Shown here one piece after another: positions 24,438 to 61,056 of a stretch of 64,000 bases of DNA. Location: contig CANRVB010000001.1 of assembly GCA_947643165.1 (NCBI GenBank), positions 124,001-188,000 on the forward strand. The letters are read 5' to 3'. Position 1 is the stretch's first letter; every line of letters starts with the position of its first letter. Under the pieces are notes generated by a model. It did not search any database. It was given only the letters and a program-made list of their open reading frames with translations, and was not told where the DNA came from. A program made the translations under genes and the position numbers. This stretch comes from an uncultured Porphyromonadaceae bacterium. Its GTDB lineage: Bacteria > Bacteroidota > Bacteroidia > Bacteroidales > Muribaculaceae.

Positions 24438-25646
24438 TCACTCGGCATCAATCAGCTTTTTCAGACGGAGAAGAGCCTCAACGTAGTAGTAATCGGCATA
24501 GCTCAGAGGTACATCGACCTCGCTGTCGGAGGGAAAATTGCCAGTGGAATGCATCAGGGCAAAATTGCAGTTTTCGCCGACGGGAGCCAGATAATCGGGC
24601 GAAGTCAAGGAGCGAATCTGTTCTTCGGCAAAGTCGCGGTAGGTCTTGGCATCCTGCTTATCACTGTCGAGCTGGCTCAATTCGATAAGAGCCGAGGCCA
24701 TAATGGCAGCCGCGGAAGCATCGCGCGGGACATCGGGGATGCCAGGTGCATCAAAATCCCAATATGGGACTTTGTCGGCAGGCATAGCGGGATGATTCAT
24801 GATGTAGTCGGCAACATGCTTGGCCTGAGCCAGATATTCGGGCTTCTCCGTCTCACGATACATCATTGTGAAGCCATAAAGCGCCCAAGCCTGTCCACGC
24901 GCCCAAGCAGAGGAATCGGCCGCGCCCTGATGAGTCTGCCGTATGTGCGGATTGCCGGTAATAGTGTCGTAGGAGACAACATGATAGCAGCTGTAATCAT
25001 CGCGGAAATGATTGTTGAGAGTCTTGTCGGCATGAGAGACAGCAATGTCGCGGAATCTGTCGTCGCCCGAAGCATCAGCTGCCCAACACATGAATTCCAG
25101 ATTCATCATATTGTCGATGATAACCGGATACTGCCACACCTTGCGGTTGAAATCCCAGGAGCGGATAGCACCAACGCGCTGATCAAAACGTGTAGCGAGC
25201 GAGTTGGCTCCAGTGAGCATGATATCCCTGTAGATAGAGTCGCCTGTAAGCCTGTAACCGTTTCCGAAGCTGCAATTGAGCATGAAACCCAAATCGTGGC
25301 TATAGGTGATGTTTTTGGCATCTTCGACACGAGCGGTGAACATACGTGCATAGTTCTTCAACTCGTCGGTAGGATTTGCCTCGTAGAGATACCAGAGTTC
25401 GCCGGGAAAGAACCCACTGCACCACCAGCTGTAATCGCTGGTCTCGAGAGTACCCTGCTTGTTGATACATTTTGGCAGGCGTCCCTCCTGGTTTTCAAGT
25501 TCCCTGGCCATCAGAACAGCTTGCTGAGCGGCAACACTCAGACCTCGATCCACAACATCGGCAATCGGCTCACGCACAGGCCGAGGATCGCATGAGACTG
25601 CCAGAGCTGCGCATGCGAGCACTCCGAAAGTCAGTAGTTTGTTCAT
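24438..25646 (-). CDS. Glycoside hydrolase family 88 lipoprotein (unsaturated uronyl hydrolase)
   Basis: 402 residues. A signal peptide ends in lipobox AVSC. The alpha/alpha-barrel of GH88 is indicated by YSWWCSGFFPGELWYLY, HDLGFMLNCSFG (first catalytic Asp), PVIIDNMMNLEFMCWA (second Asp), and RGQAWALYGFTMMYRET. These enzymes hydrate the 4,5-unsaturated uronic acid left at oligosaccharide ends by polysaccharide lyases, releasing it. No lyase or SusC/D pair is present in the window, so the parent glycan is unknown. It is divergent from a multi-domain esterase that may act on the same substrate. Confidence 0.87.
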   Translation of the reverse strand: MNKLLTFGVLACAALAVSCDPRPVREPIADVVDRGLSVAAQQAVLMARELENQEGRLPKCINKQGTLETSDYSWWCSGFFPGELWYLYEANPTDELKNYARMFTARVEDAKNITYSHDLGFMLNCSFGNGYRLTGDSIYRDIMLTGANSLATRFDQRVGAIRSWDFNRKVWQYPVIIDNMMNLEFMCWAADASGDDRFRDIAVSHADKTLNNHFRDDYSCYHVVSYDTITGNPHIRQTHQGAADSSAWARGQAWALYGFTMMYRETEKPEYLAQAKHVADYIMNHPAMPADKVPYWDFDAPGIPDVPRDASAAAIMASALIELSQLDSDKQDAKTYRDFAEEQIRSLTSPDYLAPVGENCNFALMHSTGNFPSDSEVDVPLSYADYYYVEALLRLKKLIDAE

Positions 25647-25696
25647 AATAATTGAATGAGTTGTTATAAAATAATAATTGAATGATTGGTTATAAT
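25645..25696. repeat. Tandem duplication of 26 bases at the GH88 start
   Basis: Copies at 25645-25670 and 25671-25696 share the pattern ATAATAATTGAATGA followed by a GT-rich TATAA end, differing at only a few positions. The first copy includes two bases of the GH88 start codon, so the duplication forms the GH88 leader. Confidence 0.7.
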
Positions 25697-28140: not shown

Positions 28141-28263
28141 TAATACCCCAATAAATTTGGCATTACACTCGACTTATTCGTAACTTTGGCTGACGCCCAA
28201 GTTACTACCGCTCGGTAATGCCCAAATAAATTTGGCATTACGCTCGACTTATTCGTAACTTTG
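28141..28263 (+). repeat. Palindromic promoter array 1 (upstream of dxr)
   Basis: Order: A palindrome (28141-28164, arms TAATACCCCAAT and ATTTGGCATTA), linker, B palindrome (28181-28204, arms TAACTTTGGC and GCCCAAGTTA around TGAC), linker CTACCGCTCGG, A palindrome (28216-28240), linker, and half a B unit TAACTTTG (28256-28263). The period is 75 bases. TTTG in each A right arm and TAACTTTG in each B left arm are 21 bases apart, forming two tandem promoters. The array begins three bases after the esterase stop, so its hairpins may also end that transcript. Confidence 0.85.
28231..28263 (+). promoter_or_regulatory. Proximal dxr promoter within array 1
   Basis: TTTG (28231-28234), spacer 21, TAACTTTG (28256-28263). 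Only 8 bases separate the -7 element from the dxr ATG, so this promoter would give an almost leaderless mRNA. An identical promoter lies one period upstream (28156-28188). Confidence 0.7.
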
Positions 28264-28271
28264 CAACGTAT

Positions 28272-29441
28272 ATGAAAAAAATCGCCATATTAGGAAGTAC
28301 AGGATCGATAGGAACACAAACTATCGACATACTGCGCAAACATCCGGACAGATTCGAGGCAAGTCTGCTGACAGCCGGATCGAATGTTGATCTGCTTATA
28401 AAACAGTCACGAGAACTAAGACCATCAATGGCTATAATCGCTGATGACCGGCAGTACGACAAACTACGCGAAAACCTCGAACCACTCGGCATAGAGACAG
28501 CAAGCGGCGCAGCAGCACTTGCAGATGCCATGGACCGCGATGACTTTGAAACAGTTGTCACCGCAACTGTAGGCTACAGCGGATTGATGCCAACCGTGAG
28601 AGCGATACTTTCAGGGAAAGACATAGCACTTGCCAACAAAGAAACCCTGGTGGTCGCAGGCGAGCTGATAACACATATGGCCGAAAAAAACAGCAACAGC
28701 CAGATAATACCTGTCGACTCCGAACACTCAGCAATATACCAATGCCTGCAAGGTGAAGACAGAAATCAAGTAGAACGCCTGATCATCACCGCATCGGGCG
28801 GACCATTCAGAAACATGACAGCAGAAGCACTGGAGAAAGTGACAGTAGCCGACGCCCTGCGCCATCCCAACTGGCAGATGGGAGCCAAGATCACGATAGA
28901 TTCGGCCACAATGCTCAACAAGGCTTTTGAAATCATAGAAGCCAGGTGGCTATTCGGAGTTCCAAGCGACAGAATAGAGGCAGTGGTGCATCCCCAGTCG
29001 ATAGTACACTCGATGGTAGAATTCAAAGATGGTGCCGTAAAGGCGCAGTTAGGACTCCCCGACATGCATCTGCCAATAAGCTATGCCCTGGGAGAACGTG
29101 AGCGCATAGCATCGCCCGAACACATGAGCCTGCAGGACTACAGCCGTCTGGAGTTCATGGCACCTGATATGGATAAATTTCCATGCCTAAAGCTGGCCAA
29201 GCTGGCACTTGAAACCGGAGGCACATCGGCATGTACGATCAATGCCGCCGGCGAGGTAGCCAACGAAGCATTCAGAGAAGGCATGATAAGATTCACAGAT
29301 ATTTACAGGGTGATAATGGACACCCTTGAGAAGGCACCGTCGGTCCAGCAACCAGGACTTGACGATTATGTAGCCATAAATTCGGCCTCGCGCGCCATAG
29401 CATCGCAGGAAGTGGCCAGAATAAACTTTAACCAACTCTGA
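28272..29441 (+). CDS. dxr: 1-deoxy-D-xylulose 5-phosphate reductoisomerase
   Basis: 389 residues. Second step of the MEP isoprenoid pathway: DXP plus NADPH to methylerythritol phosphate. The NADPH motif is ILGSTGSIGTQTIDIL at the N-terminus. ALANKETLVVAGE and IIPVDSEHSAIYQCL carry the metal and substrate ligands, ITASGGPFR closes the flexible loop, and NWQMGAKITIDSATMLNKAFEII is the family signature. First of four tightly packed genes (dxr-rseP-methyltransferase-DPP III). The start at 28272 lies only 8 bases from a predicted -7 element; no later ATG fits, because the Rossmann motif begins at residue 6. Confidence 0.95.
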   Translation: MKKIAILGSTGSIGTQTIDILRKHPDRFEASLLTAGSNVDLLIKQSRELRPSMAIIADDRQYDKLRENLEPLGIETASGAAALADAMDRDDFETVVTATVGYSGLMPTVRAILSGKDIALANKETLVVAGELITHMAEKNSNSQIIPVDSEHSAIYQCLQGEDRNQVERLIITASGGPFRNMTAEALEKVTVADALRHPNWQMGAKITIDSATMLNKAFEIIEARWLFGVPSDRIEAVVHPQSIVHSMVEFKDGAVKAQLGLPDMHLPISYALGERERIASPEHMSLQDYSRLEFMAPDMDKFPCLKLAKLALETGGTSACTINAAGEVANEAFREGMIRFTDIYRVIMDTLEKAPSVQQPGLDDYVAINSASRAIASQEVARINFNQL

Positions 29442-47296: not shown

Positions 47297-47654
47297 TTGG
47301 CAAAATGCAGGATATTGTTAACAGAAGGTGCTGTTTTAGGTTAAAGCAGCGCGAGGATTAATATCTTTTAATGACTTTTAGTGGAATATTGACGGCGAGG
47401 GCGGCGTGAGGGTTGTTTATTATACGAAACGTAAGTAGAAAGACAACAGCAAGAAAGAGACAAGCAACAAACTACTCAACATCCCTCGTCCTTATTATTG
47501 GATAGTGATTATTAGATGATAAGGCTCTCATAAATAAATAGTTGAAACGTGAGAGGAGGAGCTGCGACCCAAGGCTGCAGCTCCTCCTTTGCGTTGATAT
47601 GAAGGAATGTATGAACAAAGGGGATATTTCGCAAAAGAAGTCGTTGAAGAAGCA
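47297..47654. other. Intergenic region after recQ
   Basis: No convincing gene on either strand. It contains an imperfect inverted repeat (47490-47524, arms CCTTAT and ATAAGG) and a strong hairpin with short T run (47554-47591), 258 bases past the recQ stop. The distance suggests either a long 3' end or a short unrecognised transcript. Confidence 0.5.
47554..47591 (+). terminator. Strong hairpin between recQ and array 2
   Basis: 12-base stem AGGAGGAGCTGC / GCAGCTCCTCCT, 11-base loop, then TTG. Confidence 0.6.
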
Positions 47655-47872
47655 GTAACTTTGGCTGACGTTCGGCAAACCGCAAATGAATTTGCGTTTG
47701 CGCTCTACTTATCCGTAACTTTGACTGTTGTCGAAGTTACTCACGCTCGGTAATGCTAAAATAAATTTTGCATTACACTCGACTTATCCGTAACTTTGAC
47801 TGTCGTCGAAGTTACTCTCGTTCGGCAAACTGCAAATGAATTTGCGTTTGCGCTCACTTATTCGTAACTTTG
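47655..47872 (+). repeat. Palindromic promoter array 2 (upstream of the GH2 gene)
   Basis: Truncated B (TAACTTTGGCTGACG at 47656), A (47676-47700, arms CAAACCGCAAAT and ATTTGCGTTTG), B (47716-47739), A (47751-47775, arms TAATGCTAAAAT and ATTTTGCATTA), B (47791-47814), A (47826-47850), and final half B TAACTTTG (47865-47872). The period is 75 bases. Each A/B pair gives TTTG - 20 or 21 bases - TAACTTTG. The A stems differ in sequence between copies but stay paired. B loops and stems are the GAC/GTC variant. Confidence 0.88.
47841..47872 (+). promoter_or_regulatory. Proximal promoter of the GH2 gene within array 2
   Basis: TTTG (47841-47844), spacer 20, TAACTTTG (47865-47872). The leader is about 70 bases. 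Two equivalent promoters lie one and two periods upstream. Confidence 0.7.
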
Positions 47873-47946
47873 CAGGGTATAGCGACATGCCATGCAAACA
47901 GTGTGATAATTCTAACAATCAAAACCATAAAACCAATCTACCAACC

Positions 47947-50900
47947 ATGATCACAGCAAAGGCTTGGATGATAGCGGCCGCAACGGCCGGTGTACTGGCA
48001 GCAAACGCGGCCAGCCCTCAGCCACAGCTCGAAGGGTGGGCTTACGACCTGAGCGTAACGGCCCCTGACGGCACGGAATGGCAGAGTCCCGGACGTCTGT
48101 CGCTCAACAAAGAGCAACCCCGGGCAGAATTTTACAGTTTCGAGAATGAAACGGCAGCTCTGAAAGTGCTGCCTGACGGCTCGCGGTATTACCAGAACCT
48201 GAACGGACAGTGGAAATTCCGCTGGGTAGCCAATCCCTGGGAGCGCGACTCCACCTTCCATGAGGCAGGAAAGGATCTGAGCAGCTGGGATGACATAGCC
48301 GTGCCCGGCTCGTGGAATATCCAGGGACTGCAGAAGGACGGCAGCCAGAAGTATGGCACGCCCATCTACGTGAACCAGCCGGTGATATTCATGCACAAGG
48401 TAGCGGTAGACGACTGGCGCGGCGGCGTGATGCGCACACCCCCGGAAAGCTGGACGACCTACAAGGCAAGAAACGAAGTGGGCCAGTACAGCCGCACTTT
48501 CAGCGTGCCTGAGGACTGGAAGGACAGAGAGGTGTATATAAACTTCGACGGCGTAGACTCGTTCTTCTATCTGTGGATAAACGGCAAGTATGTGGGATTC
48601 AGCAAGAACTCGCGCAACTCGGCCCGCTTCAACATCACTCCCTATCTGGCCAAGAAGGGAGCGAACACGATATCGGTAGAGGTGTACCGCAACAGTGACG
48701 GCAGCTTCCTGGAGGCCCAGGATATGTTCCGTCTGCCGGGCATATTCCGCACCGTAGCCCTGTATTCAACACCGAAGATGCAGATACAGGACCTGAAGGC
48801 AATCCCGAGCCTGAGCGGCACCTTCATGAACGAGGGCAAGCTGAATGTAGTGACCACCCTGCGCAACCTGACGGGGAAGAACCAGAAGGACCTAACAGTG
48901 GACTACAAACTGTATCAGTGCAGCAAGCTGTATGAAGACGCGACCAACGGCACGCCTGTAGCAACCGCCTCGAACGCAAAGGTAGGTGTAGCGAAAGACG
49001 GTTCGATAGCTGTAGAGGCTACCATAGATGCGGGCGAGGTGAAGACCTGGAGCGCGGAAGCACCGTGGCGCTACATACTCGTGGCCCAGCTGAAGGACAA
49101 GAAGGGCAAAGTGATCGAGACCGTCTCGACCTTTACCGGCTTCAGAGTAGTAGAGATAAAGGACACTCCCGCAAGCGAGGATGAATTCGGACGCGCAGGC
49201 CGCTACTACTATGTGAACGGCCAGACCGTGAAGCTGAAGGGCGTCAACCGTCACGAAACCATGCCTGACCGCGGCCATGCAATAACCCGCGAGAACATGG
49301 AGAAGGAAGTGATGCTGATGAAGCGCGGCAACATAAACCATGTGCGCAACTCGCACTACAATGATGATCCGTACTGGTACTACCTTGCAGACAAGTATGG
49401 AATCTATCTGGAGGACGAGGCCAACATAGAGAGCCATGAGTATTACTACGGCAAGGCATCGCTGAGCCATCCGGAAGAGTGGAAGCCGGCCCACGTGAGC
49501 CGCGACATGGAGATGGTGAGAGCGCATGTGAACCATCCGTCGATAGTGATATGGAGTCTTGGCAACGAGGCTGGCCCGGGTGAGAACTTCGTGGCTTCGT
49601 ATGACGCGATAAAGGCATACGACACGAGCCGTCCGGTGCAATATGAGCGCAACAACGAGATAGTAGACATGGGCTCGAACCAGTATCCGTCGATAGGCGG
49701 CACACAGTATCTGGCCAACGGCGGCGAGGGCGCGAAGTATCCGTTCCACATATCGGAGTACGCACACTCGATGGGCAACTCGTTAGGTAACCTTGTAGAC
49801 TACTGGAACGCGATAGAGAGCAGCAACTTCATAATGGGCGGCGCCATATGGGACTGGGTAGACCAGAGCCTGTATAACTATGACAAGAAGACGGGCAAGC
49901 GCTATCTGGCATACGGCGGCGACTTCGGTGACTTCCCCAACGACGGCCAGTTTGTGATGAACGGCATAATGTTCGGCGACCTGACCCCGAAGCCCCAGTA
50001 CTATGAGGTGAAGAAGGTATATCAGAATGTCGGCGTGACACCGGTAGACATGGCCAAGGGCCAGATAGAGATCTTCAACAAGAACTACTTCGAGCCGCTG
50101 ACCGACTACACCATGAGCTGGACACTGCTCGAGGATGGTGTGACAGTAGAGAGCGGAGATGCGCTGACAGGCCCGAAGATGCCGCTTGGACCGCGCGAAA
50201 AGGCGGTGTACACCATACCCTACAAGCTTGACGGCCGCACCGGCGAACTGGCAGTGAATGTAGAGTTCAAGCTTGCCGAGGACAAGCCGTGGGCCAAGAA
50301 AGGCTACGTCCAGATGGACGAACAGCTTCCGATACGCGAAGCCAGCAACCTGAAAGCGCTGAGCGCCGATGCCACAGGCCACGCCGTGACCATGAGCGAA
50401 AACGGCAAGGAGGTGAAGCAGGTAGACAATGTTACCGCTCCCCTGACAGTGAAGGGCAACGGATTTACAGCAGTATTCTCGCCGGAGACCGGCTCGCTGA
50501 GCTCGCTGATATATGGCGGCAAGGAGATGATAGCCGACGGCAAGGGACCGCAGCTCGATGCGTTCCGCGCACCGGTGAACAACGATACCTGGGTAGACCG
50601 CAACTGGTGGTCGAACGGACTGGACAATCTGAAGCACACAGTATTGTCGTCGGATGCCTATACGACAGAAAACGGCACAGCCGTAGTGATATTCAAGGTA
50701 AAGAGCCAGGCACCCTACGCAGAGCGTCTGAAGAGCCAGAGAATAGATGGCTCATGGGGTACGGATGAGCTGAGCCGCGCACATCACGAGATAGAGCAGC
50801 TGACCGATCAGCCCAAGGGTGAGAACGACTTCATGTTTGTGACGGACCAGATCTGGACAGTATATCCTGACGGATCGATAGAGCTTGAGTCGGTGATCAA

Positions 50901-52056
50901 CGGCAATAATCCGAGCCTTGTACTTCCGCGCTTAGGCTATACAATGAGCGTACCTCAGAGCATGGACCAGTTCGAGTATTACGGCCGCGGCCCTCTGGAA
51001 AACTACGCCGACCGCAAGACAGGCAGCTTCCTGGGTCAGTACAAGCAGACCGTAGCGGACCAGTTCGTGAACTATCCGAAGCCCCAGAACATGGCCAACC
51101 GTGAGGATGTGCGCTGGGCATCGCTGACATCGAAAGATGGATCGGGCCTTGTTGTTACCGCCGCAGAACCTATGAGCGTCACCGCAATACCCTGGACCGA
51201 GCGCGACCTGATACTGTCGGGCCATCCGTATGAGCTTCCGGCACCGGGCAACACACAGCTGCACCTTGACCTCGGCATGACCGGTCTTGGCGGTGCAAGC
51301 TGCGGTCAGGGCGGACCTCTGAAGCCAGACCGTGTGATGGGCGGCACCAACAAGATGAGTCTCGTGATCCGTCCGGTGAGCGCCGCATCGCCCGCAAGCG
51401 TGAAGGCCAAAGTGATACCTGACGGAGCAAGCCCACTGCGTCTGGAACGCAACGGCATGACCGGAGATGTGAGCGTGATAGCACCCAAGGAGGGTGACAA
51501 GATCATGTATAAGACCAACGGCATGAAACGTGCGAAGGCTTATGAAGGCGCTGTAGCCATGAAGGATGGAGGCACCATAGAGGCGTGGCTTCTCGACAAT
51601 CCGCACATAAGCAACACCGCCACCTATCCAAAGATAGACAAGGTAGCGACAGAGGTTGTATTTGTAAGCTCGGAGGAGCCTGATGATCCGGCAGTGAATC
51701 TGACAGACGGCGACACTGAGTCAATCTGGCACTCGATGTGGTCGGTAACCGTTGCGCAGTATCCACACTGGATTGATTTCGACACCAAGGGAGATCATGA
51801 GATAAAGGGTCTGCAATATGTACCGCGCACCGACAGCTGGACCGGTCTGATAAAGGATTACGAGATCTATGTGTCGACCGACGGCAAGGAATGGGGCGAG
51901 CCCGTAGCAAAGGGCAGCTTCGAGCGGACAGTCAAGCCACAGCGTGTGGACTTCAGCAAGCCAGTGAAGGGCAGATATGTACGCTTCAAGGGTCTGAACG
52001 CCCACGACGGACAGGATTATGCGGCAGGCTCGGAAATCGAGATTTTCGCCGAATAA
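47947..52056 (+). CDS. GH2 beta-galactosidase-like enzyme with C-terminal discoidin/CBM32 domain
   Basis: 1369 residues from the ATG at 47947, which starts the signal peptide (cleavage near AANAASPQ). Upstream in-frame codons run through the promoter array and are rejected. Domains: GH2 sugar-binding (about 55-290), Ig-like (about 300-420), TIM barrel (about 425-720) with acid/base Glu541 in WSLGNEAGPG and nucleophile Glu604 in HISEYAHSMGN, DUF4981-type Ig domain, beta-galactosidase small-chain domain (about 840-1160), and a C-terminal F5/8 type C domain (about 1225-1369). It probably acts on host or plant galactosides at the surface or in the periplasm. Confidence 0.9.
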   Translation: MITAKAWMIAAATAGVLAANAASPQPQLEGWAYDLSVTAPDGTEWQSPGRLSLNKEQPRAEFYSFENETAALKVLPDGSRYYQNLNGQWKFRWVANPWERDSTFHEAGKDLSSWDDIAVPGSWNIQGLQKDGSQKYGTPIYVNQPVIFMHKVAVDDWRGGVMRTPPESWTTYKARNEVGQYSRTFSVPEDWKDREVYINFDGVDSFFYLWINGKYVGFSKNSRNSARFNITPYLAKKGANTISVEVYRNSDGSFLEAQDMFRLPGIFRTVALYSTPKMQIQDLKAIPSLSGTFMNEGKLNVVTTLRNLTGKNQKDLTVDYKLYQCSKLYEDATNGTPVATASNAKVGVAKDGSIAVEATIDAGEVKTWSAEAPWRYILVAQLKDKKGKVIETVSTFTGFRVVEIKDTPASEDEFGRAGRYYYVNGQTVKLKGVNRHETMPDRGHAITRENMEKEVMLMKRGNINHVRNSHYNDDPYWYYLADKYGIYLEDEANIESHEYYYGKASLSHPEEWKPAHVSRDMEMVRAHVNHPSIVIWSLGNEAGPGENFVASYDAIKAYDTSRPVQYERNNEIVDMGSNQYPSIGGTQYLANGGEGAKYPFHISEYAHSMGNSLGNLVDYWNAIESSNFIMGGAIWDWVDQSLYNYDKKTGKRYLAYGGDFGDFPNDGQFVMNGIMFGDLTPKPQYYEVKKVYQNVGVTPVDMAKGQIEIFNKNYFEPLTDYTMSWTLLEDGVTVESGDALTGPKMPLGPREKAVYTIPYKLDGRTGELAVNVEFKLAEDKPWAKKGYVQMDEQLPIREASNLKALSADATGHAVTMSENGKEVKQVDNVTAPLTVKGNGFTAVFSPETGSLSSLIYGGKEMIADGKGPQLDAFRAPVNNDTWVDRNWWSNGLDNLKHTVLSSDAYTTENGTAVVIFKVKSQAPYAERLKSQRIDGSWGTDELSRAHHEIEQLTDQPKGENDFMFVTDQIWTVYPDGSIELESVINGNNPSLVLPRLGYTMSVPQSMDQFEYYGRGPLENYADRKTGSFLGQYKQTVADQFVNYPKPQNMANREDVRWASLTSKDGSGLVVTAAEPMSVTAIPWTERDLILSGHPYELPAPGNTQLHLDLGMTGLGGASCGQGGPLKPDRVMGGTNKMSLVIRPVSAASPASVKAKVIPDGASPLRLERNGMTGDVSVIAPKEGDKIMYKTNGMKRAKAYEGAVAMKDGGTIEAWLLDNPHISNTATYPKIDKVATEVVFVSSEEPDDPAVNLTDGDTESIWHSMWSVTVAQYPHWIDFDTKGDHEIKGLQYVPRTDSWTGLIKDYEIYVSTDGKEWGEPVAKGSFERTVKPQRVDFSKPVKGRYVRFKGLNAHDGQDYAAGSEIEIFAE

Positions 52057-54443: not shown

Positions 54444-54549
54444 ATGGAACAAGAGAGATAATGAGCTTACGCGAACGGGGTGGACATGATGGTGTGTCGG
54501 CCACGCGATGCGTGATAGGGCAAGGTGGATAGGGAGGGGGTACGTTCGG

Positions 54550-54815
54550 CAATCGAAAATAAATTTTCGTTTGCTCTCACTTAATCGTAACGGTGGCTGA
54601 CGCCCAAGTTACTCACGCTCGGTAATGCCAAATAAATTTGGCATTACCCTCGACTTAATCGTAACTTTGGCTATCGCCGAAGTTACTCTCGTTCGGCAAA
54701 CAAAAATAAATTTTCGTTTGCTCTCACTTAATCGTAACAGTGGCTGACGCCCAAGTTACTCACGTTCGGCAAACAAAAATAAATTTTCGTTTGCTCTCAC
54801 TTAATCGTAACTTTG
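54550..54815 (+). repeat. Palindromic promoter array 3 (upstream of the CHU_C gene)
   Basis: A (54550-54573), B (54588-54611), A (54623-54646), B (54662-54685), A (54697-54720), B (54735-54758), A (54770-54793), and final half B TAACTTTG (54808-54815). The period is 73-74 bases. A stems are of two kinds (CAAAC...GTTTG and TAATGCCAAAT...ATTTGGCATTA). Two internal B units have lost the -7 match (TAACGGTG at 54588, TAACAGTG at 54735), while 54662 and the terminal 54808 keep TAACTTTG. Confidence 0.88.
54808..54815 (+). promoter_or_regulatory. Terminal -7 element of array 3
   Basis: TAACTTTG, only 6 bases before the ATG at 54822. The upstream -33 position reads TTTC rather than TTTG (spacer 19). 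Predicted transcripts are nearly leaderless. Confidence 0.6.
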
Positions 54816-54821
54816 CAGGAT

Positions 54822-56114
54822 ATGAGAATATTGGTACTTGCAGCAGTAATGGTGATGGCTGTGGCGTTGAGGGCCGCGGCTGAACTGAGGGTGACGGCGC
54901 GAGGTGAACATGCGCCGGTGAGGATAGAGCCTGCCAGGGGTTCGGGTCTGGAGGGTGTGTATGTTGTTGACGGGATGAGCGGCGTGGAGCTGAGATACAG
55001 GCCTGAGTCAAAGGATGGGAAGGTGAGATGGCTGAGGTTTGACAGCCGCGGTGCGGCGTATGCCACTGATGCGGGCGAGGGTAGCAGGGATGGTGACGAG
55101 GTGGTGATGGAGATAGAGGCGGGTGATATGGGGTATATAGCGGAGGAGAACAACCGGCGTCACTGCGTGTGGGTGTCGGACTACAGGATGCATCCGTTTG
55201 AGGCGCATGGGGTGGAGTGCGTCGTGGCTGACTGCGCGGGCAACACGATAAGGACGTCGGGGACAGGGGAAAGGATGACTTATACGGGTATAACGGGGCG
55301 TAGCGTAGAGATAGACAGGGAGATATGGCTGACGTATATGAATGTGGAATATGACGGGGAGAGGGATGAATATGTGCAGCGGGAGCGGATAATATCGCTG
55401 GGGTATCTGAGGGATGAGGTGAGGTGTGAGCCAACGTATTGTGACACCCGGTACAGGCTGAGCGGGGACCGGTTCGGGCGTGCATGGGGTATGGCCAGCG
55501 AGGCGGAGAGCGAGCGCGTGGAGGCTGTGGCGGTGACGGCAGAGGTGAGCGCCAGCCAACTGACGGGCGGCAATGAGGACGGTATGGAGCTGGGTGGAAG
55601 CGCCCCAGCGGAGATATGCTTCAGTGCGGCGGTGAGCGACGGGGTGGTGTATACGGAATGGCAGATAAGCGATGACGAGAGCTTCGGGCGGATAGAGTAC
55701 AGGTATAATGACCGGGAGGCGACGCATACGTTCAGGGAGAGCGGGAGGAGCTACGCACGGTTTGTGTGTGCGAACGGTGATGGCAGTTGCAGCTATGAGA
55801 GTGAGGCAACGGCGATAGAGATAGGCGAATCGATGATGAAGTGTCCGAATGCGTTCAGTCCGGACGGCGACGGGGTGAACGACGAGTGGCGCGTAAGGAG
55901 CCGGTCGATAGTAGAGTTTGACTGCCGGATATATGACCGTCAGGGACGCGAGGTGGCGCACCTGACGTCGGCAGAGCAGGGCTGGGACGGGCGCCGAGGC
56001 GGCAAGAAGGCAAAAGCGGGTGTGTACTATTATGTGATCCGCGCGAAGGGGTCGGACGGGAAGGTGTATGAGAAAAGCGGGGATATCAACATAATAGACT
56101 ACAGGCGTGAATGA
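54822..56114 (+). CDS. Secreted protein with CHU_C type-B T9SS sorting domain
   Basis: 430 residues from the ATG at 54822 (signal peptide MRILVLAAVMVMAVALRAAA). The C-terminal ~85 residues are a gliding-motility/CHU_C domain: PNAFSPDGDGVNDEWRV, FDCRIYDRQGREVAHL, GWDGRRGG, GVYYYVIRAKGSDGK, ending in GDINII. That marks cargo of the type IX secretion system. The N-terminal 340 residues match no family I know and may hold one or two beta-sandwich repeats. Codon use is extreme (AGG, GGG, GTG, GCG rich) compared with the adjacent genes, so the gene may be recently acquired or simply fast evolving. Confidence 0.8.
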   Translation: MRILVLAAVMVMAVALRAAAELRVTARGEHAPVRIEPARGSGLEGVYVVDGMSGVELRYRPESKDGKVRWLRFDSRGAAYATDAGEGSRDGDEVVMEIEAGDMGYIAEENNRRHCVWVSDYRMHPFEAHGVECVVADCAGNTIRTSGTGERMTYTGITGRSVEIDREIWLTYMNVEYDGERDEYVQRERIISLGYLRDEVRCEPTYCDTRYRLSGDRFGRAWGMASEAESERVEAVAVTAEVSASQLTGGNEDGMELGGSAPAEICFSAAVSDGVVYTEWQISDDESFGRIEYRYNDREATHTFRESGRSYARFVCANGDGSCSYESEATAIEIGESMMKCPNAFSPDGDGVNDEWRVRSRSIVEFDCRIYDRQGREVAHLTSAEQGWDGRRGGKKAKAGVYYYVIRAKGSDGKVYEKSGDINIIDYRRE

Positions 56115-60886: not shown

Positions 60887-61051
60887 ACAAATGCGTCATG
60901 TTCGGTTTTCAATTTTAAGCATAAGTTTCAAAAACACTCTGTAATTCATTGCTTTTCAGAGTTAAGGGTCTCTTGAGAAAAGAGAATAAAAAAAATTACT
61001 CGTCGTCACGACGAATAATCTTCTTACCTTAAATCTAATACCATGAAAAAC
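60834..61051 (-). ncRNA. Candidate structured small RNA, about 218 nt
   Basis: A minus-strand promoter (61087-61057) with a perfect TTTG - 19 - TACCTTTG spacing and a minus-strand terminator bound a segment without a credible reading frame. Internal structure: an 11-base-pair hairpin with loop TGA (61018-60994), a small CTCTT/AAGAG hairpin, an ACTCTG/CAGAGT stem, and imperfect pairing of the 5' end (GTTTTTC, ATTTAAG) with the 3' part (CTTAAAAT, GAAAAC). Size and overall long-duplex shape suggest a 6S-type RNA such as the Bacteroidales-1 motif; this identification is tentative. Confidence 0.55.
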
Positions 61052-61056
61052 TGATG

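Follow-up and report, generated by a model that had tools for sequence, protein, structure and literature searches.

The three tandem arrays of palindromes in the window (the whole 64,000-nucleotide stretch of DNA that was analysed) are built from a single type of hairpin unit, copies of which are dispersed through the source genome and occur in related genomes. In the putative promoter box at the right end of each unit, two bases are free to vary, and they change in step with those of an arm located some 50-65 nt upstream. Our preferred explanation, to which we give an even chance of being correct, is that of a dispersed miniature hairpin repeat, similar to REPs and REPINs in form, whose copies were placed behind pre-existing promoters and which restores a promoter at its own right end.

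An earlier note on this DNA had described arrays of two alternating palindromes, A and B, at 28141-28263, 47655-47872 and 54550-54815, with a period of 73-75 bases, and all three were found as described (Table 1). TRF reported period 75 with 2.7 copies at 47668-47872 and period 73 with 3.7 copies at 54542-54811; the short array at 28141-28263 was absent from the TRF list, and its two right ends lie 75 bases apart. Regular spacing of palindromic units within one array, which is a criterion for BIMEs, was found, with A and B alternating at 73-75 bp. A right-end pattern allowing up to three mismatches matched seven times in the window, as compared to a mean of 0.00 in 100 shuffled sequences. Also as described, every array terminates in TAACTTTG, with a gene on the same strand directly after it: the gap from the array end to the start is 8 nt for the ATG of dxr, 6 nt for the ATG of the CHU_C protein gene and approximately 14 nt for the GH2 gene. 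The terminal unit of array 1 consists, in order, of the left arm AAGTTAC, a linker, the A stem, the linker CTCGACTTATTC and the right arm GTAACTTTG. Two points of the earlier description needed correction, in that the left ends of the arrays are ragged and the middle array is preceded by a second conserved motif, AAGGGGATATTTCGCAAA.

Table 1. Coordinates of the repeat units, associated motifs and downstream genes in the window.
Feature	Position	Strand	Supporting evidence
Array 1, truncated first unit (A palindrome, linker, right arm with TAACTTTG)	28141..28188	+	
Array 1, full terminal unit, predicted promoter -7 box	28199..28263	+	profile match, folding
dxr, gene after array 1	28272..29441	+	TIGR00243, NF009114 above cut-off
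AAGGGGATATTTCGCAAA, upstream module of a separate promoter class, ahead of array 2	47618..47635	+	
-7 box TAACTTTG of the AAGGGGATATTTCGCAAA promoter; array 2 begins immediately after	47656..47663	+	
Array 2, first unit, left arm truncated	47664..47723	+	profile match
Array 2, second unit	47734..47798	+	profile match, folding
Array 2, terminal unit with predicted promoter	47809..47872	+	profile match, folding
GH2 family protein after array 2, start approximate	47887..52056	+	PF02837, PF02836, PF00703
Array 3, decayed first unit, -7 box broken: GTAACGGTG	54533..54595	+	profile match
Array 3, second unit	54606..54669	+	profile match, folding
Array 3, third unit, -7 box broken: GTAACAGTG	54680..54742	+	profile match
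Array 3, terminal unit, -7 box TAACTTTG intact	54753..54815	+	profile match, folding
CHU_C (type IX secretion signal) protein after array 3	54822..56114	+	PF13585

A consensus was derived from 188 distinct units, a set from which units containing N or lying less than 40 nt from a locus end were left out. It consists of the left arm C-n-A-A-n-n-T-A-C, the linker TnnCGYTCGG, an inner stem, an A-rich loop, the second strand of the inner stem, the linker nCTCGACTTATTC, which also occurs in shorter forms, and the right arm GTAnnTTTG. The outer stem pairs AAnnTAC of the left arm with GTAnnTT of the right arm, so that the feet of the unit read GTAnn / nnTAC. The sequence of the inner stem is variable and the linkers are fixed, their conservation being partly imposed by the search pattern. 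Within the arrays listed, units lie head to tail on one strand. When five units of the window were folded as DNA, both the outer and inner stems formed, with z scores of -2.4 to -4.7 relative to shuffles, although in one of the five the outer stem appeared in the centroid only.

The variable positions of both stems covary. The two free bases of the -7 box can pair with the left arm of the same unit in 172 and 155 of the 188 units, respectively; when right arms were re-dealt among units, the means were 65 and 112, and the observed values were never reached in 500 trials. Populated letter pairs between -7 box and left arm included GA/TC (56 units), GT/AC (34), GG/CC (30), AT/AT (10) and TA/TA (8), and in the CT/AC class (9 units) the second base is unpaired. 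Positions 1-5 of the inner stem were paired in 162 to 181 of the 184 units that parsed, as compared to shuffle means of 70 to 162, with the first variable position paired in 175 of 184 (shuffle mean, 74). Because units within one genome are related, such counts do not represent independent events. With one unit taken from each of 30 genomes, both outer bases were paired in 29 of 30 cases and inner positions 1, 4 and 5 in 30, 26 and 27 of 30, and a shifted-partner control reduced these inner counts to 0-6, 5-22 and 2-15. Since the A stems vary in sequence yet stay paired, A does not constitute a fixed operator for a protein.

Pairing of the third T of TTTG would be possible in just 8 of the 188 units. 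Thus, the left arm retains only a disrupted mirror image of the -7 box, as would be expected if a promoter in the opposite direction were harmful, or if the mismatch belongs to the fold. Short inverted ends are present, but they covary between copies, and TTTG is found on both sides at many sites.

The recurrence of two palindromes claimed in the earlier note is real, but B was not retained as the primary unit. An upstream -7 box is available for 152 units (36 more have none), and in 37 of these the left arm lies between differing boxes and is therefore informative: it matched the box of its own unit in 27 cases, the upstream box in 2 and neither in 8. The unit is therefore the A hairpin with its outer arms, and the B palindrome arises at the junction between the right arm of one unit and the left arm of its successor. 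At the 152 junctions, three positions of the B inner stem covary (121, 127 and 44 paired versus shuffle means of 61, 77 and 22), and covariation was not found in the next two.

As the earlier note proposed, the right half of the unit resembles a promoter. It ends in a -7 box of the sigma-ABfr type, TAnnTTTG, and in the units printed, TTTG or a near form is located at the border of loop and stem approximately 20 nt before it. In the part of PMC7366714 used here, the sigma-ABfr promoter consensus of Bacteroides is given as TAnnTTTG at -7 and TTTG at -33. Judging from consensus, position and conservation, the right half is predicted to be a complete and active promoter of the Bacteroidetes housekeeping type. 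Among terminal or single units, 182 of 191 had an intact TTTG in the -7 box, versus 18 of 39 internal ones (Fisher p 1.3e-12); for right ends lacking their own left arm under the strict pattern, the counts were 50 of 60 terminal or single versus 27 of 59 internal ones. CA directly follows TTTG in 119 of 251 terminal right ends. In contrast to an ordinary sigma-ABfr promoter, which is not known to have a paired arm, the nn of the -7 box in the repeat is tied to its distant arm.

The earlier note had stated that random placement relative to gene starts would speak against its proposal; instead, a gene start lies ahead of the promoter end at 62 of 76 sites, as compared to 33 of 71 for the left end. 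This count is based on 80 named loci of at least 118 stretches, with a downstream gene called at 76 sites and a neighbor of the left end at 71; some of the "end" assignments look like mis-called starts and were kept unchanged. The genes behind the repeat are unrelated in function, as had been noted for dxr, GH2 and CHU_C in the window, and this extends to varied genes across the genome. In the source genome, dxr, argS, rlmN, rlmD, ruvX and ybeY lie directly behind units and dnaG behind a weaker profile match (C22:15641, 49.7 bits), and further downstream genes encode the GH2 and CHU_C proteins, an alkaline phosphatase, a chromate transporter and others. No clear gene was found behind 2 of 20 sites in this survey, in which L150 was not parsed and L017 was taken at the wrong end.

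The earlier note saw no flanking insertion repeats. The arrays do have a flanking regularity: many start approximately 9-11 nt behind another -7 box. The scan for such boxes covered the 183 of 188 units with enough upstream sequence. In 54 first units, no sequence resembling the CTTATTCG linker occurs upstream; 30 of these show a TAnnTTTG-like box 7-15 nt ahead of the left arm, in most cases by 9-11 nt, versus 3-5 of 54 in equal windows further upstream, and 24 of the 54 have none. A possible earlier left linker lies near 3 of the 30 boxed units; in the subset without any trace of one, the box is present in 20 of 37 cases (controls, 1-4). A middle class of 27 units includes 19 with a -7 box (controls, 0-9). 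Target-site duplication of a whole -7 box was considered and rejected, since the two -7 copies disagree in their nn bases at 37 of 152 sites, and at most TTTG could be duplicated.

Some of these upstream boxes belong to the AAGGGGATATTTCGCAAA class, of which the source genome contains 31 copies, with TAnnTTTG 19-21 nt behind the module in 30 of the 30 read. The repeat sits right behind this -7 box in 6 of the 30 and not in the other 24; two of the six have a truncated first unit, and three are also among the 30 boxed first units described above, so that the two counts overlap. With the spacer fixed at 20 and one mismatch allowed, the class was found in 0 of 33 other genomes of the same genus. 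Thus, it is not an old shared promoter, and it looks like either a promoter class specific to the species or a further promoter repeat of the dispersed kind. The two sites of the source genome with no clear gene downstream, L009 (contig C3, ~18089) and L011 (contig C10, ~52693), are arrays behind a AAGGGGATATTTCGCAAA promoter, where unannotated small RNAs or orphan insertions are possible.

The profile search of source and related genomes suggested in the earlier note revealed that the repeat is dispersed throughout the genome and beyond it. The unit profile gave 30 matches at 17 sites in the source genome, and CTTAWYCGTAACTTTG with at most one mismatch gave 33, with none for the reversed control. 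Of its left arms, 26 of 27 are accompanied by their right end, and three right-only remnants were seen (L012, L014, L017), numbers too few to lean on in comparing right-only with left-only remnants. Full units were found in 37 of 397 genomes of the same family, representing 10 of 30 genera (reversed control, 0), and because the full-unit pattern is strict, these genome counts are lower bounds. Within the genus, 3 of 34 genomes contain full units, in 25, 6 and 1 copies, and 31 contain none. The right-end pattern was present in 26 of the 397 family genomes, its reversed control occurring once in each of three genomes. In an order-wide sample, 3 of 198 genomes were positive, two of them in the same family, so that outside it the count is 1 of 195. 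Carriers among the matches listed include records titled Prevotella, Alistipes, Rikenellaceae, Muribaculaceae and Paludibacteraceae, found with a pattern that fixes the linkers; two of the Prevotella records bear the titles Prevotella aff. ruminicola Tc2-24 and Prevotella sp. P5-50. The matches listed also include a record titled Lachnospiraceae (L237, JAMPGZ010000016.1), which is probably mislabelled or a mixed bin.

Orthologous loci differ in whether they carry the repeat. An array lies upstream of dxr at 2 of 29 readable loci of the same genus, in the source genome and in G008 (one further locus, L110, was unreadable); the G008 array has TATCTTTG with a matching GATAC arm. The loci without an array have a plain TAnnTTTG within 110 nt in 26 of 27 cases, and the dxr orthologues at these empty sites are 59-69% identical in protein sequence. 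Similarly, a g17 gene is preceded by the repeat in G109 and G372 and by a plain promoter in G358 (69% DNA identity). The flank upstream of this array in G109 and G372 could not be aligned, so that exchange between arrays is also possible. Unit number at orthologous sites was 0, 1 and 2 in G095, G340 and G358, respectively. Between G109 and G372 (L313, L338), the gene is approximately 97% identical and the inner stems of both array units differ, as if entire arrays had been replaced or exchanged; because the G372 contig stops a short way upstream, the far flank is hardly comparable. No insertion between close strains was found, the empty orthologues being only moderately related. A different dispersed repeat, also abundant and matching G109 and G372 many times, was observed in L316 at ~1-260 and 470-560.

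Among known elements, the Correia elements of Neisseria are promoter-bearing MITEs that are small, have palindromic ends and can supply outward promoters. They differ from this repeat in size, ends and phylum, and we know of no covarying hairpin arm in them. The earlier note knew of no described element that alternates two palindromes with a promoter at their junction. In this wording the statement is not supported: in the sections of the cited papers considered here, BIMEs alternate REPs (PMC2817692), and BrickBuilt is a promoter-carrying repeat (PMC4596501). REPINs consist of two REPs in inverted orientation, for which folding into a single hairpin is predicted (PMC3116915). Like REPs, BIMEs and REPINs, as characterized in these sections, the present units are short, dispersed, imperfect palindromes, single or clustered, with alternative complementary residues in their stems and an uneven distribution between species (PMC3116915, PMC2817692, PMC3733652). 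Unlike REPs, which usually number more than 100 (PMC2817692) and are described as downstream from coding regions (PMC3733652), there are about 30 copies here and their built-in predicted promoter faces gene starts. The units also lie head to tail, in contrast to the alternating orientation of REPs in BIMEs, and, unlike RAYT-linked REPs, they reside in a Bacteroidales host in whose source genome RAYT was not found; the relevant section of PMC3733652 lists CGTC but not GTAG repeats for Bacteroidetes. Similar to BrickBuilt, which has 19 copies in one strain, and other P. gingivalis MITEs, the repeat is intergenic, occurs in Bacteroidales and combines tandem repetition with promoter elements (PMC4596501). 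According to the same part of that paper, BrickBuilt differs in being a 23-nt minisatellite with a leader and tail, IS5-like terminal repeats and bidirectional promoters, and has full matches only in P. gingivalis and homologues in P. gulae (PMC4596501). The repeat shares its form with BIMEs and REPINs and its promoter carriage with the P. gingivalis MITEs. We found no description of it in the open-licence literature, which was the scope of the search.

These likenesses raise the question of whether the repeat belongs to the REPINs or BIMEs in the strict sense, in which case a RAYT (Y1 HUH) transposase would move it and the promoter would be incidental. In keeping with this idea, the hairpins are imperfect and dispersed, stand alone or in tandem, occur unevenly from one species to the next and have variable stems with fixed flanks, and Y1_Tnp genes were present in 23 of the 37 genomes tested. 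However, PF01797 (Y1/RAYT) was absent from the source genome (88.5% complete) and from six other carriers tested, including G008 (99% complete, 6 units), and among the 37 hand-chosen genomes Y1_Tnp was found in 7 of 14 carriers versus 16 of 23 non-carriers. Only 1 of 30 Y1 loci (L064, G360 contig C51) had a right end, approximately 580 bp behind the gene and with none on the other side, and the position ahead of genes is unlike that described for REPs; we thus regard RAYT-driven movement as unlikely. We consider it equally unlikely that the hairpin acts chiefly as a 5'-leader RNA, in which the transcript of the upstream promoter would begin with a hairpin controlling stability or translation and the internal promoter would be an alternative start. 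Covariation suits RNA as well as DNA, and because the left arm at many sites lies ~9-11 nt behind an upstream -7 box, transcription from that promoter would set in a few bases ahead of the hairpin. Nevertheless, no such box precedes 24 of 54 first units, the -7 box is often damaged where another unit follows (18 of 39 intact), the upstream gene is divergent at 33 of 71 sites, and no Rfam family was matched at the gathering score. At that score, a search of the window and 18 related loci gave nothing in the repeats, one sRNA elsewhere in the window and two tRNAs, and a permissive search of array 3 gave one chance-level match (E 0.62), far below the gathering score.

Less probable still are two further readings. 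If A and B were binding sites for transcription factors and the arrays defined a regulon, fixed linkers, tandem layout and location at promoters would be accounted for, but the compensated stem variation is unlike a sequence-specific operator, the genes are unrelated, and dxr is without an array at 27 of 29 readable loci in the genus. Alternatively, ordinary promoters could have been duplicated in tandem, with palindromes made and kept by neutral quasi-palindrome correction. Template switching can yield covariation of arms without selection, and unit number does vary between orthologous loci. Against this, the linkers have not become complementary and few units (8 of 188) could pair at the third T of TTTG, so that correction would have to be local, and among the matches listed, contigs titled Prevotella, Alistipes, Muribaculaceae and Paludibacteraceae share these linkers, the search pattern itself fixing them. 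We rated this reading as doubtful as the operator arrays. Several other candidates were rejected: a coding function and CRISPR, because units differ by compensatory change and are without spacers; an intrinsic terminator, because a T tract is absent behind A in the units printed; and a phage-borne element, for which six stretches were found in a viral contig collection.

Returning to the miniature hairpin repeat placed behind promoters, it was probably once mobile. Copies would have entered the start-site regions of promoters already in place, whether in the form of a single-stranded hairpin or through copying, and there the right end would re-create the -33 and -7 boxes next to the old start site. 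With these boxes re-created, insertion ahead of essential genes could be tolerated. Tandem copies would then accumulate, and their inner promoters would decay or be selected against. We infer harmlessness to the host as the advantage of this arrangement, alongside transcription, movement and target choice. A more far-reaching version, which we put forward tentatively and hold to be less probable than the simple repeat, is that the hairpin uses promoters as its landing site and, by rebuilding a promoter at its own end, spreads ahead of essential genes while leaving the host viable; owing to its paired -7 box, in which one mismatch within TTTG is conserved, the hairpin may in addition act as a promoter on single-stranded DNA.

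If this is correct, a selfish-looking repeat would serve as the promoter of core genes (dxr, dnaG, argS, rlmN, ybeY, ruvX) in some Bacteroidales. Its -7 box would be under a second constraint, pairing with a distant arm, which goes beyond a plain repeat. It would also provide a testable case of a harmless repeat spreading through regulatory DNA, and would account for the marked differences in promoter region that can exist between orthologous genes of related gut bacteria. These repeats will also turn up in motif scans of Bacteroidales promoters.

Two further features were observed in the window: a 26-bp tandem repeat in two copies at 25645-25695, and, on the minus strand at 60986-61053, a match to Rfam RF04319 FopS, a paralogous sRNA family of Bacteroidetes (58.8 bits).
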